Positions 19,190 through 27,097 of a DNA stretch of 27,691 bases are shown piece after piece. Under the pieces are notes generated by a model, which saw nothing but the letters and a program-made list of their open reading frames with translations, ran no database searches and was not told the DNA's origin. Position numbers and translations under genes: made by a program. The first letter of the stretch is position 1. Each line of letters starts with the position of its first letter. Origin of the DNA: a virus; the IMG/VR virus record IMGVR_UViG_3300042090_000708, positions 1 to 27,691 of that record. The stretch is one strand, 5' to 3'.

Positions 19190-19600
19190 ATGGCTGACAA
19201 CGGCAAGATGGACAAGAGATGTCCTCGCGGTCTAGAATGCATGCCCGGCGAGTGGTGTCCACTTGCCGTTCTAAGATTGCGTGCGATCAGGACAGCCGGA
19301 CGAGAACTCACGGAAGATGAAGAGTCTAAGCTTCCAGGTTGTCCGTGGGCCGTCAACCATCAGGTAGCCAACTATTGTTTCTTTAAGTACATCCAAGATT
19401 TTTCTGGTGACAAAGCCCCGTCAGATATAGAGATAGCATCGTTGAACTGCATCTCCGTGGAAGCCGTCAAGAAGACTGAGAAAGCTGCGCTTAGCAAGAT
19501 ACGTGAAGCAGAGCAGTTTAAGAGTCTCAAGGAAGACATGAACGGCGAAGGTATCGTGTCGGAGTCAAAATCAGAAGATGACTACAAAATCCACAAATGA
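19190..19600 (+). CDS. Cys-rich protein with sigma-region-4-like HTH (putative)
   Basis: 136 residues. The N-terminal half has five ordered Cys (C11, C17, C23, C51, C63; CPRGLEC, WCPLAV, GCPWAV, NYCFFKY), which could bind Zn or an Fe-S cluster. The C-terminal half DIEIASLNCISVEAVKKTEK with AALSKIREAE has the spacing of a region-4/LuxR-type HTH. It sits in the head cluster and could be a transcriptional regulator of late genes; the metal ligand is not determined. Confidence 0.6.
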   Translation: MADNGKMDKRCPRGLECMPGEWCPLAVLRLRAIRTAGRELTEDEESKLPGCPWAVNHQVANYCFFKYIQDFSGDKAPSDIEIASLNCISVEAVKKTEKAALSKIREAEQFKSLKEDMNGEGIVSESKSEDDYKIHK

Positions 19601-19808
19601 TCATTTTTTAGATGCACTGCGCTATGGGTATACAACCCCGCAGGAAATTGCACGCGACAAGCTCTGTGAACTACTCACTAAGCTAGGCATAAAGTCCGCC
19701 GACAGGTTCATGGGCACAGTTCGCGTCGAGTCACTAGATCTAGTCCTAGACAATGTCACGTTCGACGTAAAAGATCTTAAACTCTGGTCCCCTATAAAAA
19801 AGCCATAG
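19578..19808 (+). CDS. 76-aa protein resembling the capsid protein N-arm
   Basis: 76 residues, overlapping the previous gene by 23 bases. Residues 51-70 (ESLDLVLDNVTFDVKDLKLW) align without gaps with residues 51-70 of the major capsid protein (ESLEATLKSITFDMKNLKFW), 11 of 20 identical and at the same residue numbers. The first 50 residues are mostly helical (PQEIARDKLCELLTKLG) and do not clearly match. It could be a truncated capsid paralogue or a small protein that docks in the capsid lattice. No strong SD sits at normal distance (GGAG is 14 bases away); translational coupling is likely. Confidence 0.65.
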   Translation: MTTKSTNDHFLDALRYGYTTPQEIARDKLCELLTKLGIKSADRFMGTVRVESLDLVLDNVTFDVKDLKLWSPIKKP

Positions 19809-19836: not shown

Positions 19837-21507
19837 ATGGCCAAGAAACCACTTGAGATTGACATGTGCTCGGGGTCCCAGCTAAGGGATACCCAGGGTG
19901 AAATGCTCTCCGTCGAAGGAGCAGACATCGGCGAATTAGAAGCCGGCAGGGGTCGTCTTAACGACAATCACGGAAAGGGTTTCTTTAACTCCGTGGGCAG
20001 GGTCACTGAAGCTAAGAAGATATTCAAAGCTGAAGACTGCGATAACGATCGTCACAGATACTACTGGGAAAAGGTTAAAGCTCCTTATATATATGTCCGC
20101 GGATATCTATATGACGACGACGACCATCCCAATGCCCGAGCGGCAGCAGCTATCTTAAGAAATGTTCACAAGACAGATTGCCCACTGAAGCTCAAAGCTT
20201 CTGTTGAGGGTGGCGTCGTGTCGCGCGGTATATCGGATCCTTCCTTGCTCGCGCGCACGAAGATCCATTCAGTGGCTCTCACATTCACTCCAGCTAATAC
20301 GGCAACACTCGTCGAGCCTTTAAACCTTGATAAGTCTTCATCAGATGAAAAAGCAGACATGATACTAATCGAGTCTGTTTTGCATCTAGCACAGACAGAG
20401 GTGCCTTCTTTCAGGCACATCGTTCGCGATGCTTCTGCTACGAGAGTGGTTGAAAATATCGAGAAAATAGCAGAATTAGTAAAAGTAGAGGGCGGGAACA
20501 TCCACGTTCCATCTAAGAGTGCTATTATTCAGTATGCACTTGAAGCTAAGGTTCATAGCAATGTTGCTAAGATAAAAGATGTCGTTCGCGAGATAAAGCA
20601 GGACGAACTTGAAAAAGGTATTAAGTCTGCCATCGCTGGTGCGGCACTCGCTGGAGCAACAGCTCTCGCACCATCGCAAACAGCCGGTCCACAAGACGTG
20701 AAGCAATCAGCACAAGTTCAGCAGCAACAGAATGCTGAGCCAACAGTACCTTCACCTGATCATCAAAAGGCATTTCAAGGTTTTGCAAAGCAAAATCCTC
20801 TGCTCGGCGCAATCGGCATGGTTGAATCAAGCGGTGGAGCAAACTACAAGCACGCACCTATTAATGATCCTAAGAGCCAGCATGCTGGCCACACAGCTGG
20901 CGGCATGTTCGGCATGATGCCTAATGCTGCAGTCTACATTCTTCACAATGATCCTAAGTTAGCAGCTAAATATCCTAAGTTATCTGAAGCAGCTAAAGAT
21001 GTGAACAAGAATCATACGGTATTTACAGAGACGTTCAACAGGGATCCTCAGGCTGCTTACGACTTCGCTGATGCCCTCATGCGAAGAAATAAGACAAAGA
21101 CGCGCGATATAAATATGTTAATTCATTCGTGGAATCATGGACTTAAAGGTACATGGGAACGCTATAAGAATGAAGGTCCGGAAGCTATACAAGACGCCGA
21201 CTACGTTCAAAAGGTGCTTGGAGCTTACAAGAAATTGCAGCCCCATAATGCAAAGAAACCAGCTAAGAACCTTAAGAAGGCGCTCACTGCTGGGTACGGT
21301 GGAGCTGGCAAGCCCACAGATCTGGGCGGCGGGGGAGTTCTACAGTCGGAAGCAATGGATGACGGACGAAGTTTTAAGTACGTCACTTGCGACGACTGTG
21401 GTAAAGAACAGGTCTATTCTAAGTATCAAGTTAAGTGCAGAGAGTGCGGTGGCTCTTTTCCCATGGAAAAGTTGCACAAGTTGTTCCTAGGAGCAATAGC
21501 TACTTAA
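19837..21507 (+). CDS. Prohead protease fused to transglycosylase-like domain, capsid-arm segment and zinc ribbon
   Basis: 556 residues in four parts. (1) Residues 1-165: herpesvirus/T4 gp21-type prohead protease, with candidate catalytic His45 (LNDNHGKGFF) and Ser122 (KASVEGGV), then IHSVALTFTPAN. (2) Residues 175-310: a helical linker with an Ala-rich hydrophobic stretch and a Gln-rich segment. (3) Residues 318-467: lysozyme/transglycosylase-like, Glu330 in GMVESSGG, then GGMFGMMP and SWNHGLKGTWERY. (4) Residues 481-505 repeat the capsid protein arm, followed by a CxxC-x12-CxxC zinc ribbon (C518, C521, C534, C537). The gene stands before decoration, scaffold and capsid genes, as expected for the maturation protease. 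The fused peptidoglycan-type domain is unusual; it could be packed in the head and act at infection. Confidence 0.8.
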   Translation: MAKKPLEIDMCSGSQLRDTQGEMLSVEGADIGELEAGRGRLNDNHGKGFFNSVGRVTEAKKIFKAEDCDNDRHRYYWEKVKAPYIYVRGYLYDDDDHPNARAAAAILRNVHKTDCPLKLKASVEGGVVSRGISDPSLLARTKIHSVALTFTPANTATLVEPLNLDKSSSDEKADMILIESVLHLAQTEVPSFRHIVRDASATRVVENIEKIAELVKVEGGNIHVPSKSAIIQYALEAKVHSNVAKIKDVVREIKQDELEKGIKSAIAGAALAGATALAPSQTAGPQDVKQSAQVQQQQNAEPTVPSPDHQKAFQGFAKQNPLLGAIGMVESSGGANYKHAPINDPKSQHAGHTAGGMFGMMPNAAVYILHNDPKLAAKYPKLSEAAKDVNKNHTVFTETFNRDPQAAYDFADALMRRNKTKTRDINMLIHSWNHGLKGTWERYKNEGPEAIQDADYVQKVLGAYKKLQPHNAKKPAKNLKKALTAGYGGAGKPTDLGGGGVLQSEAMDDGRSFKYVTCDDCGKEQVYSKYQVKCRECGGSFPMEKLHKLFLGAIAT

Positions 21508-21539
21508 AGTAACGCATAGGTGTATCAGGCGTGTTTAAG
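21503..21539 (+). other. Imperfect stem-loop at end of protease gene
   Basis: CTTAAA (21503-21508) pairs with TTTAAG (21534-21539), and ACGC (21512-21515) with GCGT (21529-21532). The stem includes the protease stop codon. No T-tract follows, so it may be an RNA-processing or stability element rather than a terminator. Confidence 0.4.
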
Positions 21540-21552
21540 TAATAGGCCATGG

Positions 21553-21558
21553 TATATT
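21553..21558 (+). promoter_or_regulatory. Extended -10 promoter of the capsid operon
   Basis: TGG-TATATT with no -35, giving a leader of about 40 bases (+1 near 21565). The leader contains the perfect 16-base palindrome TAACTTTCGAAAGTTA (21576-21591), a potential 5' hairpin directly beside the SD AAGGAG (21591-21596). Confidence 0.6.
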
Positions 21559-21604
21559 GAAGAGTATCAAGTTTCTAACTTTCGAAAGTTAAGGAGAGAA
21601 CGAA

Positions 21605-22087
21605 ATGGCTAACATTACTTCGATCAGTAACAAGATCGCACGCAACGCGCAAATTCTTGGTTACACGGTAACCGCGCAAGGCGAAGATTCATTTGGCAAC
21701 GCCACAGTGACGATCACCGCTGACACAGGCACTCTGACGGTAACATACCTCACAGCTGCCATCCAACTTCCAATGGGCGGTGTTTCGAACACAGTTTCGC
21801 CTTATCTTGGTATTGGCGTAGCTAACCCTGGGCAATTAATGATTGCTTCATCGGTTTCTACAACTGGCTCGATGGCCGACATCATCAACGGTCCTATCTC
21901 TGCTAACATCTTCGCGATGTGCGCAGGCTTTGCAAACGACATTGTTCTTGCTGACGCAGCAACGGTTTCTGGTCGCAGTGCAACAGATTCTTCCATCAAC
22001 GGCCTTCCGGCCTCTACCGGCGGCGCTGGTAACCCATACTGGGTTCGCGTACGTGGTACGACTGATTGGTTGGGAATGGGTCAGTAA
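21605..22087 (+). CDS. Putative head decoration or minor capsid protein
   Basis: 160 residues, Gly/Ala/Ser/Thr/Val-rich with many beta-like segments (NATVTITADTGTLTVTYL) and few charges; no signal peptide. It is the first gene of the scaffold-capsid operon with a strong SD. The 14-base stretch AAGGAGAGAACGAA before its ATG is shared with the leader of the major capsid gene. Composition, expression signals and position suggest an abundant head protein such as a decoration protein; the family is not identified. Confidence 0.6.
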   Translation: MANITSISNKIARNAQILGYTVTAQGEDSFGNATVTITADTGTLTVTYLTAAIQLPMGGVSNTVSPYLGIGVANPGQLMIASSVSTTGSMADIINGPISANIFAMCAGFANDIVLADAATVSGRSATDSSINGLPASTGGAGNPYWVRVRGTTDWLGMGQ

Positions 22088-22117
22088 TTGGGTCTTAATG
22101 ATTAACGAGGAGTTAAC

Positions 22118-23020
22118 ATGAAAGAGGAACTAAAAAAGAGCCTCACAGACCTGATCGATGAGACTCTCTTAGAGCTTGAAGAGCTTAAGAAGTCAAGATT
22201 CGCAGCTAGTGAGATTAAGTTAGAAGGTCCTGGCGAAGGTATCGCTGGGAAGCCATCTAACGGCGACCTTCACGCTAAGAAAGAAGACAAAAAAGAAGAT
22301 GAAGACGACGATAAGGACGAAGCTGAGAAGGCTGAAGGCCAAAACCGTCAATCGGATCCTAACGGTGGCCATCACAAGCCTACCGCTGGCGAAGGCGACA
22401 AGCATGGTCAAGGACCATCTGAGTCACCAAGCTCTACTAAGGATCACGGCCAAGGTAAGAACTCTGAATCTGACCCTGGCAACACTCACTGGGCTATGAA
22501 GTCTGAAGGTGACGAAGGTCACATGAAGAAAGAAGAAGACGGTGACGAGAAGAAAGATAAAAAAGACAAGAAGGACAAGAAAGACGACAAGAAGGATGAC
22601 AAGGATGATAAGCCCGCATTTATGAAGGGTGATCATACTCCAAGTCCTGAAAAAGTCAACTCTGATGTCCAGAAGCTCGTAATGCACGGACTTAAGAAGT
22701 CGCAAGAAGAGTCAGATGCTCTTATGAAGAGTTTTGTTGAAGAGCGCGTAAAGCCTCTTGAAGAAAAGCTCTCTACGATCCTCGACCTTGTCAACAAAAT
22801 TGCCGATCAACCAGTTCCACCTAAAGGTGTTACTGCAAATGCTGTTCCTCTCCGCAAAAGCGGTGAAGAGGGTGGCTTTGAAGAATTGTCCAAGTCAGAA
22901 GTCGCATCCAAACTATTCGAATTGAAGAAGTCTGGTACGAAGGTTGACTCTCTAGATATCACTAGAGCTGAAATGGGACAAGATCTTGCTAAGATCGCAG
23001 CTAAATATAAGATTTCGTAA
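22118..23020 (+). CDS. Head scaffolding protein (putative)
   Basis: 300 residues. Residues about 40-180 are extremely polar low-complexity, alternating Lys and Asp/Glu (EKKDKKDKKDKKDDKKDDK), with Gly/His/Ser-rich stretches between. The C-terminal 120 residues form helices (SDALMKSFVEERVKPLEEKL) and end in a basic helix (DLAKIAAKYKIS), the usual place for capsid binding. The N-terminus is also a charged helix (LTDLIDETLLELEELKKS). Position directly before the capsid gene and a strong SD (GAGGAG) fit an internal scaffold that is degraded by the prohead protease. No enzyme motif is seen. Confidence 0.75.
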   Translation: MKEELKKSLTDLIDETLLELEELKKSRFAASEIKLEGPGEGIAGKPSNGDLHAKKEDKKEDEDDDKDEAEKAEGQNRQSDPNGGHHKPTAGEGDKHGQGPSESPSSTKDHGQGKNSESDPGNTHWAMKSEGDEGHMKKEEDGDEKKDKKDKKDKKDDKKDDKDDKPAFMKGDHTPSPEKVNSDVQKLVMHGLKKSQEESDALMKSFVEERVKPLEEKLSTILDLVNKIADQPVPPKGVTANAVPLRKSGEEGGFEELSKSEVASKLFELKKSGTKVDSLDITRAEMGQDLAKIAAKYKIS

Positions 23021-23038
23021 TCAAAGGAGAGAACGAAA

Positions 23039-24481
23039 ATGAACGACGCAATTAACCAAGTTCTACAAGGCCTAGACCAGGGTCTCGTGTCCGCAGGCGA
23101 CATCGAAGCTCTGAATAAGGCAATCACTGCCGGTTACGGCGGGGCTGGTAAGCCTACTGACCTCACTTATGGTGGCGTCCTTCAGGCCGAATCTCTCGAG
23201 GCAACTCTGAAGTCGATCACTTTCGACATGAAGAACCTCAAGTTCTGGCCATCAATCTCTGTCGATAAGGCTTATAACCTGTTCGAGCAATACAACCGTT
23301 TGATCGCGTACGGCTCTGATAGCGTACCTTACATCGGTGAAGGTGGCGCTCCTCAGGAAGAAGACTCGACATACGTACGTGACGGTCAAAAGATCGTATT
23401 CTTCGGTACACGCCGCAGAGTATCGCATCAGATGACACTTGTTCGCGTTACTGTTGGCGACATCGTTGCACAACAAGCGAAAGAAGGTACGATGCACCTT
23501 CTGAAAAACATCGAACGTGAACTCTACTGGGGTCACGGTCACTTCATGAACCAAACAACCGGTCTTGAAACCGGTTCGGATGCTGACCTTCCGGTTAACA
23601 GCATCGCGATGAGCGGCTTGTTAAAGCAGCTTCAAAAAGGCGACACGGATGCACAAATGCAAGCCGGCGACTTTTTGGGCTACGGTGACAACAGCTCCAT
23701 CCAAACAGACCTTGGCGGTAACGTCATGGCTCAAGACGATATCGAGCGTTTGGCTGTTATCGCCCTTGAAAACTTCGGTGCTCCGGACCAAATGCACATC
23801 GAACCAGCTTGCTTAAGCGCGTTCGTAAAGCAGTTCTATCCGCAGTTCCGTTCAGCTCCTGGTCTTGCTAACCAAACAGTTGGTTACGATGTGTCGAAGG
23901 TACAAACTACCGCCGGCGCTATCGACCTTAAGCCGAACCTCTTCTTGCGTCCTCGCGCTGGTGTTCGCACCCTCGCAGTGAACAGCTTGTCTCCTGCTAA
24001 CACCTTTGCAGTTACTGCAACGGGCGTATCTGGTACGTCTACTTTCGCAGCTGGTACTTATCAAGTATCGGTAACGGCAGTGAACGACGCTGGTGAATCT
24101 TCGCCAGTGAACACGACTGTAACTTTGACCGCTGGTCAAAACTTGCAGTGCGCAATCAGCGCTCCTCCAGCAGGCGTTAAGTACTGGAAACTTTATTTGT
24201 CCGCTCCGGGCGGCGCTGCAGGTACTCAGCAATTTGCTGGTAACTGGGCAAACGTAGGCGCAGCTAACTATGTTAGCTCGAACGTTCAACTTCCTGGCCT
24301 TGGAGAAGCATTCTTGCTCGATATGAGCGCAGAATGCATGCGCTTCAAGCAACTTGCTCCGCTCTCGAAGATCAACTTCGCGATCGTGACAACTGCTCTG
24401 GAATTCGCGATCGTTATGTACGGTGCGTTGTTCGTGTACACTCCACGATTCAACACTCTGTTCAGGAACATAGGAAAGTAA
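23039..24481 (+). CDS. Major capsid protein with inserted Ig/FN3-like domain
   Basis: 480 residues preceded by a strong SD (AAAGGAG). The N-arm (27-51, TAGYGGAGKPTDL then GGVLQAE) is shared with the protease fusion. The following ESLEATLKSITFDMKNLKFW is shared with the 76-aa protein. The body (about 60-310) fits an HK97-fold capsid protein (SLSGL-like core not claimed). Residues about 318-418 form a beta-sandwich of fibronectin/Ig type (YQVSVTAVNDAGESSPV, then VKYWKLYLS). The C-terminal segment (425-480) returns to the capsid fold (FAIVTTALEFAIVMYGALFVY). It is the last gene before a strong terminator, and its location after protease and scaffold is canonical. Confidence 0.9.
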   Translation: MNDAINQVLQGLDQGLVSAGDIEALNKAITAGYGGAGKPTDLTYGGVLQAESLEATLKSITFDMKNLKFWPSISVDKAYNLFEQYNRLIAYGSDSVPYIGEGGAPQEEDSTYVRDGQKIVFFGTRRRVSHQMTLVRVTVGDIVAQQAKEGTMHLLKNIERELYWGHGHFMNQTTGLETGSDADLPVNSIAMSGLLKQLQKGDTDAQMQAGDFLGYGDNSSIQTDLGGNVMAQDDIERLAVIALENFGAPDQMHIEPACLSAFVKQFYPQFRSAPGLANQTVGYDVSKVQTTAGAIDLKPNLFLRPRAGVRTLAVNSLSPANTFAVTATGVSGTSTFAAGTYQVSVTAVNDAGESSPVNTTVTLTAGQNLQCAISAPPAGVKYWKLYLSAPGGAAGTQQFAGNWANVGAANYVSSNVQLPGLGEAFLLDMSAECMRFKQLAPLSKINFAIVTTALEFAIVMYGALFVYTPRFNTLFRNIGK

Positions 24482-26269: not shown

Positions 26270-27097
26270 ATGAAGAAGCCTAAGTATAAGAGATTTTCTC
26301 CGCCGAAAGGTAAAGCTAAGGTGCTGCTGTTTGATATTGAAACAGCACCAATCTTGGCTCATGTCTGGGGTTTGTGGGAGAACAATGTAGGCCTCAACCA
26401 GATCGTCTGCGACTGGCATCTGCTAAGCTGGAGCGCAAAATGGCTCGGCTCACCAGATAGTCAAGTTATGTATATGGATCAGCGCAACGCTAAGAATGTT
26501 GAAGATGATAAGAGTCTATTAGGGGAACTTTGGCATCTGTTAGATGAAGCAGAAGTCGTTATCACGCAGAACGGCAAGCATTTCGACCAGCGCAAAGTGC
26601 AGGCACGTTTCGTCATCAATAAGTTTGATCCTCACTCGAGCTACAAGCATATCGACTTGAAATGTGAAGCTCAAAGATTGTTTGGTTTCCCGTCGCATAA
26701 GCTCGAGTACATGACCGACAAACTAAACAAGAAGTACAAGAAGCTTAAGCATAAGAATTTTCCAGGTCACGAGCTGTGGGTGGAATGCTTAAAGGGCAAT
26801 CCTCTAGCTTGGGACGAGATGGAGACGTACAACAAGTACGACGTTCTAGCATTAGAAGAACTATACAATAATATAGCTCCCTGGGGTATAAACATCAACT
26901 TTAATGTCTTCCATGATGAGGAAGAGCACGTCTGCAAGTGCGGAAGCAAAGAGCACATCAAGAACGGTTTCTATCGCACTAACATGGGTAAGTTTCAGAA
27001 ATACAAATGTAAATCATGTGGTGCTGAGAGCCGAGATCGTCACAACCTGTTTAGCAAAGAAAAGAAAGACTCTCTCAAGCAGCACGTACCGAGGTAA
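26270..27097 (+). CDS. RNase H-fold 3'-5' exonuclease (DEDDy) with C-terminal zinc ribbon
   Basis: 275 residues. The exonuclease motifs are LLFDIETAP (D22, E24), VITQNGKHFD and YNKYDVLALEELY (Y187, D191), the DEDDy order of DnaQ/RNase_H_2-type enzymes. The C-terminal 60 residues carry a zinc ribbon (CKCGS, then KCKSCG). It may proofread for the polymerase at 3886, trim DNA or RNA ends, or degrade RNA. It is close to YprB-like predicted nucleases that are frequent in phages. It begins 1 base after the tmk stop. Confidence 0.85.
   Translation: MKKPKYKRFSPPKGKAKVLLFDIETAPILAHVWGLWENNVGLNQIVCDWHLLSWSAKWLGSPDSQVMYMDQRNAKNVEDDKSLLGELWHLLDEAEVVITQNGKHFDQRKVQARFVINKFDPHSSYKHIDLKCEAQRLFGFPSHKLEYMTDKLNKKYKKLKHKNFPGHELWVECLKGNPLAWDEMETYNKYDVLALEELYNNIAPWGININFNVFHDEEEHVCKCGSKEHIKNGFYRTNMGKFQKYKCKSCGAESRDRHNLFSKEKKDSLKQHVPR

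Follow-up and report, generated by a model that had tools for sequence, protein, structure and literature searches.

Here we report that, in a viral genome fragment of 27,691 nucleotides (IMG/VR record IMGVR_UViG_3300042090_000708, positions 1 to 27,691; hereafter the window), the prohead protease carries near its C terminus a segment that closely copies the mature N-arm of the phage’s own major capsid protein. The two copies change together across distantly related viruses, which suggests that the arm acts as a shell-protein ‘password’, by which the enzyme may enter the growing shell before cutting itself free. To our knowledge, it is still poorly understood how tailed phages load the right amount of protease into the prohead and switch it on only there. 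The four features that carry the finding are as follows.

19837..21507, + strand: prohead protease fusion, an open reading frame (ORF) of 556 amino acids (phrog_1028, head maturation protease)
23039..24481, + strand: major capsid protein of the SPO1/Herelleviridae type, an ORF of 480 amino acids (phrog_752, E 5e-54)
21277..21351, + strand: capsid-arm mimic, protease residues 481–505 (KALTAGYGGAGKPTDLGGGGVLQSE), with the proposed autocleavage between Lys481 and Ala482 (21279/21280)
23117..23191, + strand: mature N-arm of the capsid protein, residues 27–51, with the predicted maturation cut between Lys27 and Ala28 (23119/23120)

Protease residues 481–505 and capsid residues 27–51 are identical at 21 of 25 positions and at 52 of 75 bases. 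The local alignment of the two whole proteins scores 120, whereas 100 shuffles gave 38 on average and 60 at most; chance similarity is therefore rejected. Of the 21 identical residues, only 7 are encoded by the same codon in both genes, close to the number that would follow from codon usage alone (7.5 +/- 2.1), which argues against a recent duplication. An earlier note on this DNA, made from its letters alone, had pointed out both the identity and the differing codons, and both are confirmed. It had also called the flanks unrelated. This is mostly so, with a Cys4 ribbon following the block in the protease and the shell domain following it in the capsid protein, but the similarity fades gradually, tapering into ‘E(S/A)(L/M)(D/E)’, and in SPO1-type relatives it extends about 15 residues further, to ‘ESLDKDLKNLSY’. 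When the peptide was sought in the other long ORFs of the window, as the earlier note had proposed, none had the full block, the putative scaffold (22118–23020) gave no arm match and the only partial copy was in a small ORF at 19578–19808.

From its N terminus, the protease comprises an assemblin-like part (about 1–170), a helical linker, a cargo domain resembling lytic transglycosylases (LTs; 303–473), the arm tail (481–about 508) and the ribbon (about 513–552). Two scans of IMG/VR viral contigs yielded 65 distinct protease genes, either complete or reaching through the tail region, and all 65 have the arm tail; nine more without a tail are cut by the contig end. The residue before the predicted cut (P1) is Lys in 64 of 64 scored tails and the residue after it (P1′) is Ala in 63 of 64. 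K481 and A482 are invariant in an alignment of 21 protease homologues, as are K27, A28 and most of the arm in 18 capsid homologues, and the ten invariant positions of the protease block (K, A, A, G, G, P, G, V, Q and E) are all invariant in the capsid arms too. This constancy is independent of the cargo. The stretch between the catalytic domain and the tail varies from about 0 to 617 residues across the family: three proteases have no insert before the tail (L032, L087 and L095), the window phage and many relatives have the LT-like domain, one has a GNAT acetyltransferase-like domain (L098 7001–9100) and others have long HEAT-repeat arrays (L028/L092). In L108, HEAT-like repeats of about 550 residues are inserted between the arm and the ribbon.

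Beyond this family, alignments reveal protease tails that match the arm of the phage’s own capsid protein in SPO1, Exiguobacterium phage 132, Lysinibacillus phage LysYB2, Staphylococcus phages K and SA_BS1, Listeria phage P100 and Lactobacillus phage Dionysus, as well as in Enterococcus phage GVEsP-1, Bacillus phages 035JT004 and Eldridge, Aerococcus phage AVP, Thermus phage Cumys, Myxococcus phage Mx1 and Pseudomonas phage Touem01. Examples of the pairs are AVLTAGDPHALDPKSGLTGVPAIRRESLE and AVQTAGDPHALDFKAGLSGVPAIRLESLE in the Thermus phage, KAMEAGNFNAAPSTLQGGSALQSE and KAMEAGNFNAKPSTLVQGSAMQIE in Mx1, and KSLEAGYGSDMANLSGGSAMRMQSLD and KSLQAGYGSDMNDLSGGSALRIQSLD in Touem01; the pairs of AVP and Dionysus are the weakest. 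The block is absent from four control phages in which it was looked for (Felix O1, T4 (gp23 and gp24), HK97 and PB1), so that universality in all tailed phages is rejected and the shared arm belongs to the SPO1-type head module rather than to tailed phages generally. Homologous proteases without the segment, which the earlier note had named as evidence that would count against it, occur among distant homologues only, mostly in Bacteroidetes phages.

The two copies co-vary within phages. Over 15 phages, the normalised similarity between protease and capsid arms, computed with fixed starts, is 0.52 within phages and 0.29 between phages (permutation p 1e-5). Own pairings score above swapped pairings in 104 of 105 phage pairs, and in all 28 among eight divergent phages, in a test for which the windows were set by each phage’s own alignment and which slightly favours own pairs. 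Silent sites are saturated: across the 15 phages the codon is the same for 163 of 347 identical residues, compared with 162.9 expected (z = 0.01). One old duplication would not leave greater similarity within phages than between them, and copies made recently would still have codons in common. These comparisons thus strongly support a shared selection on the peptide, as the earlier note had proposed, and the codon statistics (7 versus 7.5; 163 versus 162.9) reject recent duplication or gene conversion. It is highly improbable that the block is left over from a duplication or recombination of adjacent genes and has been maintained by inertia or renewed by gene conversion. The two genes are near neighbours, and the third, partial copy in the small ORF of the window and of three relatives is what such exchange might leave, but the full saturation of silent sites, the retention of the tail in 65 of 65 proteases while the adjoining domains are replaced, and the co-variation of residues across deep lineages all argue against it.

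The position of the cut is indicated by known capsid structures. In PDB entries 9row, 9rox and 9roz, the Staphylococcus kayvirus capsid chain of 439 residues begins with SFQTGYG, that is, after Lys24 (Lys24/Ser25), and in alignments the shared block starts exactly at the equivalent of this Lys/Ser bond in both capsid protein and protease. Together with the invariant Lys, this places the maturation cut very probably between Lys27 and Ala28 in the capsid protein and between Lys481 and Ala482 in the protease. Exceptions exist in the wider set, in which the Thermus protease has no Lys directly before the block and the Lactobacillus protease has no Lys. The earlier note was therefore probably right in kind when it suggested that the segment contains the protease’s own cleavage site, but it put that site in the wrong place. 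Its proposed cut near GGVLQ/(A/S)E finds no support and is rejected, because the residue directly after Q is variable and the PDB chain start points to the upstream Lys/Ala bond, at the beginning of the block.

The block seems to be more than a cleavage site. Two centres of conservation lie past the cut, the first being KAxxAGYG and the second G-x-V-x-Q-x-E, about 18–24 residues further and beyond the reach of the usual protease subsites. In the second centre, alternate positions have a mean entropy of 0.17 bits, compared with 1.65 bits for the positions between them, as computed on tails filtered for Q, which favours that one position. Such alternation points to a β-strand with one buried face rather than to recognition by an active site. 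By itself the tail block is predicted to be disordered in the AlphaFold2 (AF2) model (pLDDT about 30). Capsid targeting or docking to the lattice, which the earlier note had offered as further options, would fit this pattern and is what we pursue below.

The main alternative, possible though rather unlikely, is that the resemblance reflects substrate mimicry only. The block would then be an extended element that the protease reads through its active site and an exosite, and the tail would serve for autocleavage and perhaps, until maturation, as an autoinhibitory pseudo-substrate, with no docking to the shell. The block begins exactly at the Lys/Ala or Lys/Ser site, co-evolution of an enzyme with its substrate would also produce co-variation within phages, and there are precedents for parts of the idea: gp245 of SPN3US removes its own 64-residue C-terminal propeptide (PMC10052503), and until T4 gp21 cleaves itself, its N-terminal region keeps it blocked (PMC9958956). 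Against this account, the strongest conservation away from the cut lies about 18–24 residues downstream in a strand-like alternation, far outside the usual protease subsites, and capsid protein and protease have no sequence in common upstream of P1. The putative scaffold lacks the block, and capsid arms keep the motif in lineages with a tailless protease.

We are inclined, on balance, to read the C-terminal part of the protease as a cleavable capsid-arm tag that would serve for prohead entry and then for self-release. The protease precursor, with its LT-like cargo, bears a copy of the mature N-arm of its own phage’s capsid protein, and the strand-like end of this arm (G-x-V-x-Q-x-E) would take a capsid-arm site in the prohead lattice, bringing protease and cargo inside. 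Once the prohead is complete, the protease would act on the same Lys/Ala site in both proteins, cutting behind Lys27 of the capsid protein and behind Lys481 of its own chain. The catalytic part would thereby be freed, leaving an arm–ribbon fragment, about 75 residues long, whose N terminus matches that of the mature capsid protein; the Cys4 ribbon would stay on this fragment. In virions of the P100-like phage CKA15, the prohead protease has been detected by four peptides with 29.5% coverage (PMC12282133), which would be compatible with retention of a fragment.

Several observations weigh against a tag of this kind. The cargo is usually found on the N-terminal side of the cut and so would not stay attached to the arm. 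The protease tail is absent in Bacteroides phage DAC16 and in the faecal phage MT835500, and no tail copy was found near the capsid gene of Chryseobacterium phage MA9V-3; heads of this type can evidently form without the tag. Finally, the mimicry is partial, as protease tails do not conserve K38, D41 and Y44, which are invariant in the capsid protein. DAC16, MT835500 and MA9V-3 nevertheless all retain the capsid arm motif, which indicates that the arm is primarily a capsid element that the protease has copied.

The released fragment might itself be the useful product, acting as a decoy or minor capsid component that fills arm positions at special shell sites (such as those close to pentamers or to the portal vertex), or as a structural or DNA-contacting zinc-ribbon protein in the virion. 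Its predicted N terminus is that of the mature capsid protein, the Cys4 ribbon is invariant in the 21 aligned homologues even where about 550 residues of HEAT repeats intervene (L108), in Mx1 the cargo comes after the arm and is about 960 residues long, and the protease peptides in CKA15 virions would be explained. Herelleviridae, however, have no ribbon and carry a different C terminus instead, and we regard this role as improbable.

The Mx1 protease (L003 11962–15681) has 1,239 amino acids, with the arm at 242–275 followed by the cargo. This cargo contains a DRNDGN...IDN motif reminiscent of PI3/4-kinase-like enzymes (putative), and a Pfam search gave no identification. The protease frame of 035JT004 (L040 5238–5780) is annotated as ‘major capsid protein’, an automatic annotation that was possibly misled by the shared arm.

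The window encodes, on one strand, replication genes, terminase, portal, protease, putative scaffold and the capsid gene. The remaining features discussed here are listed below.

19969..20268, + strand: putative catalytic triad of the protease, His45 (19969), Ser122 (20200) and His144 (20266), invariant in 21 homologues
20743..21255, + strand: cargo domain of the lytic-transglycosylase/goose-lysozyme fold, protease residues 303–473, from VIA-align of the AF2 model
21379..21504, + strand: C-terminal Cys4 ribbon (C518, C521, C534 and C537), the four Cys invariant in 21 homologues
22118..23020, + strand: putative scaffold of 300 amino acids, highly charged, between the protease and capsid genes and placed as SPO1 gp3.3
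19578..19808, + strand: small ORF of 76 amino acids, a partial capsid mimic, the C terminus of which resembles capsid residues 48–72 (VRVESLDLVLDNVTFDVKDLKLWSPIKK; hidden Markov model E 1.6e-7)

Profile matches and fold identify the protease as a caudovirus prohead protease of the assemblin-like type (S78/U9/herpesvirus assemblin fold). It matches known head maturation proteases (phrog_1028, E 9.5e-10) and the putative prohead protease of Mx1 (37% identity), and prohead proteases in BFVD match its model (E 3e-4). Residues 5–165 of the AF2 model match the herpesvirus assemblin fold in VIA-align with middling Z scores of 7.2–7.6 over 120–125 residues, and from this match H45, S122 and H144 would form a triad of the Ser-His-His type. 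The VIA-align matches mainly cover residues 303–473, which resemble SLT, MltC and MltE (Z 10–12.4), the best being Slt70 (1sly; Z 12.4, root-mean-square deviation 2.6, 134 residues). This cargo domain has no Pfam sequence match, and a candidate ESSGG motif is present in most cargo-bearing homologues in the alignment. It is unusual to find a domain with the fold of peptidoglycan-cutting enzymes inside a head protein, between a prohead protease and its tail. The Cys4 ribbon gives weak zinc-ribbon matches in Pfam.

The capsid protein is about 30% identical to SPO1 gp6.1 over 96% of its length and matches PDB entry 9vel (E 8e-58). A β-rich stretch of high pLDDT at about 320–415 is probably an Ig-like insertion. 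The AF2 model of the whole protein is poor (pLDDT 44) and does not inform the position of the arm. The putative scaffold matched no family in profile searches, and a search with the protease at E <= 1e-5 gave no herellevirus match, returning Mx1 only. By its head module, the phage would be a relative of the Herelleviridae and, on present evidence, not a member of the family.

The small ORF that immediately precedes the protease gene resembles, at its C terminus, the stretch of the capsid arm that comes next (VESLDLVLDNVTFDVKDLKLWSPIKK compared with AESLEATLKSITFDMKNLKFWPSISV), with 12 residues identical to the capsid protein, three of them with the same codon. Similar small ORFs occur in relatives L008 (7724–7969), L011 (7659–7964) and L012 (7747–7971). 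The ORF is fast-evolving, and some other relatives retain a similar N-terminal half (LLxLLxKLGIK) but lack the capsid-like end. We propose only tentatively that the capsid arm may be a general, portable entry tag of SPO1-type heads, so that any protein with the phage’s own Lys/Ala arm would be incorporated into the prohead where a capsid arm would otherwise sit, and would then be processed. Phages of this family would make use of it by exchanging enzymes in the protease polyprotein (LT, acetyltransferase-like, HEAT repeats) for loading into the head, and the small upstream ORF would be a second user of the lattice site.

The closest known systems are SPO1 gp3.2 and the other prohead proteases of Herelleviridae (PF04586, Peptidase_S78). 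They share with the window phage the gene order (portal, protease, scaffold and capsid), a homologous capsid protein and a protease tail with the phage’s own capsid arm after Lys/Ser, but they lack the cargo domain and the Cys4 ribbon and have another C terminus after the arm. The propeptide of SPN3US gp245, also a prohead protease, is similar in length to the fragment of about 75 residues predicted here, whereas gp245 recognises many head proteins by a short AXE motif that lies upstream of the cut. No such block is common to T4 gp21 and the capsid proteins gp23 and gp24. Internal proteins of T4 carry at one end a short capsid targeting sequence, which takes them into the core of the prohead and is then removed by the prohead protease (PMC9958956). 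Its target is the scaffolding core, and it does not copy the capsid protein, whereas the tag described here copies the mature capsid arm. Sharing of one peptide by several unrelated internal proteins, as with the T4 sequence, is not seen in the window.

The precursor of herpesvirus assemblin likewise joins a protease of this fold (Z 7.6) to a C-terminal extension that is to be cleaved. That extension brings the protease into the capsid. The herpesvirus tail is a scaffold that binds the capsid protein, whereas the tail in the window phage mimics the capsid protein itself. We found no prior description of the shared arm in the accessible literature, which left out most subscription journals.

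The presence of a protease with the mature arm and cut site of its own capsid protein, in phages of hosts from Thermus to Staphylococcus, provides a concrete hypothesis that can be tested in SPO1 and in phage K/812, as it predicts a specific lattice site, a cut and a fragment. If the docking role is true, the arm would be a natural tag for placing foreign proteins into large phage heads.

Elsewhere in the window, directly downstream of a thymidylate-kinase-like gene, an ORF of 275 amino acids (26270–27097) has an exonuclease-like N terminus (LFDIETAP) and a Cys-rich C terminus.

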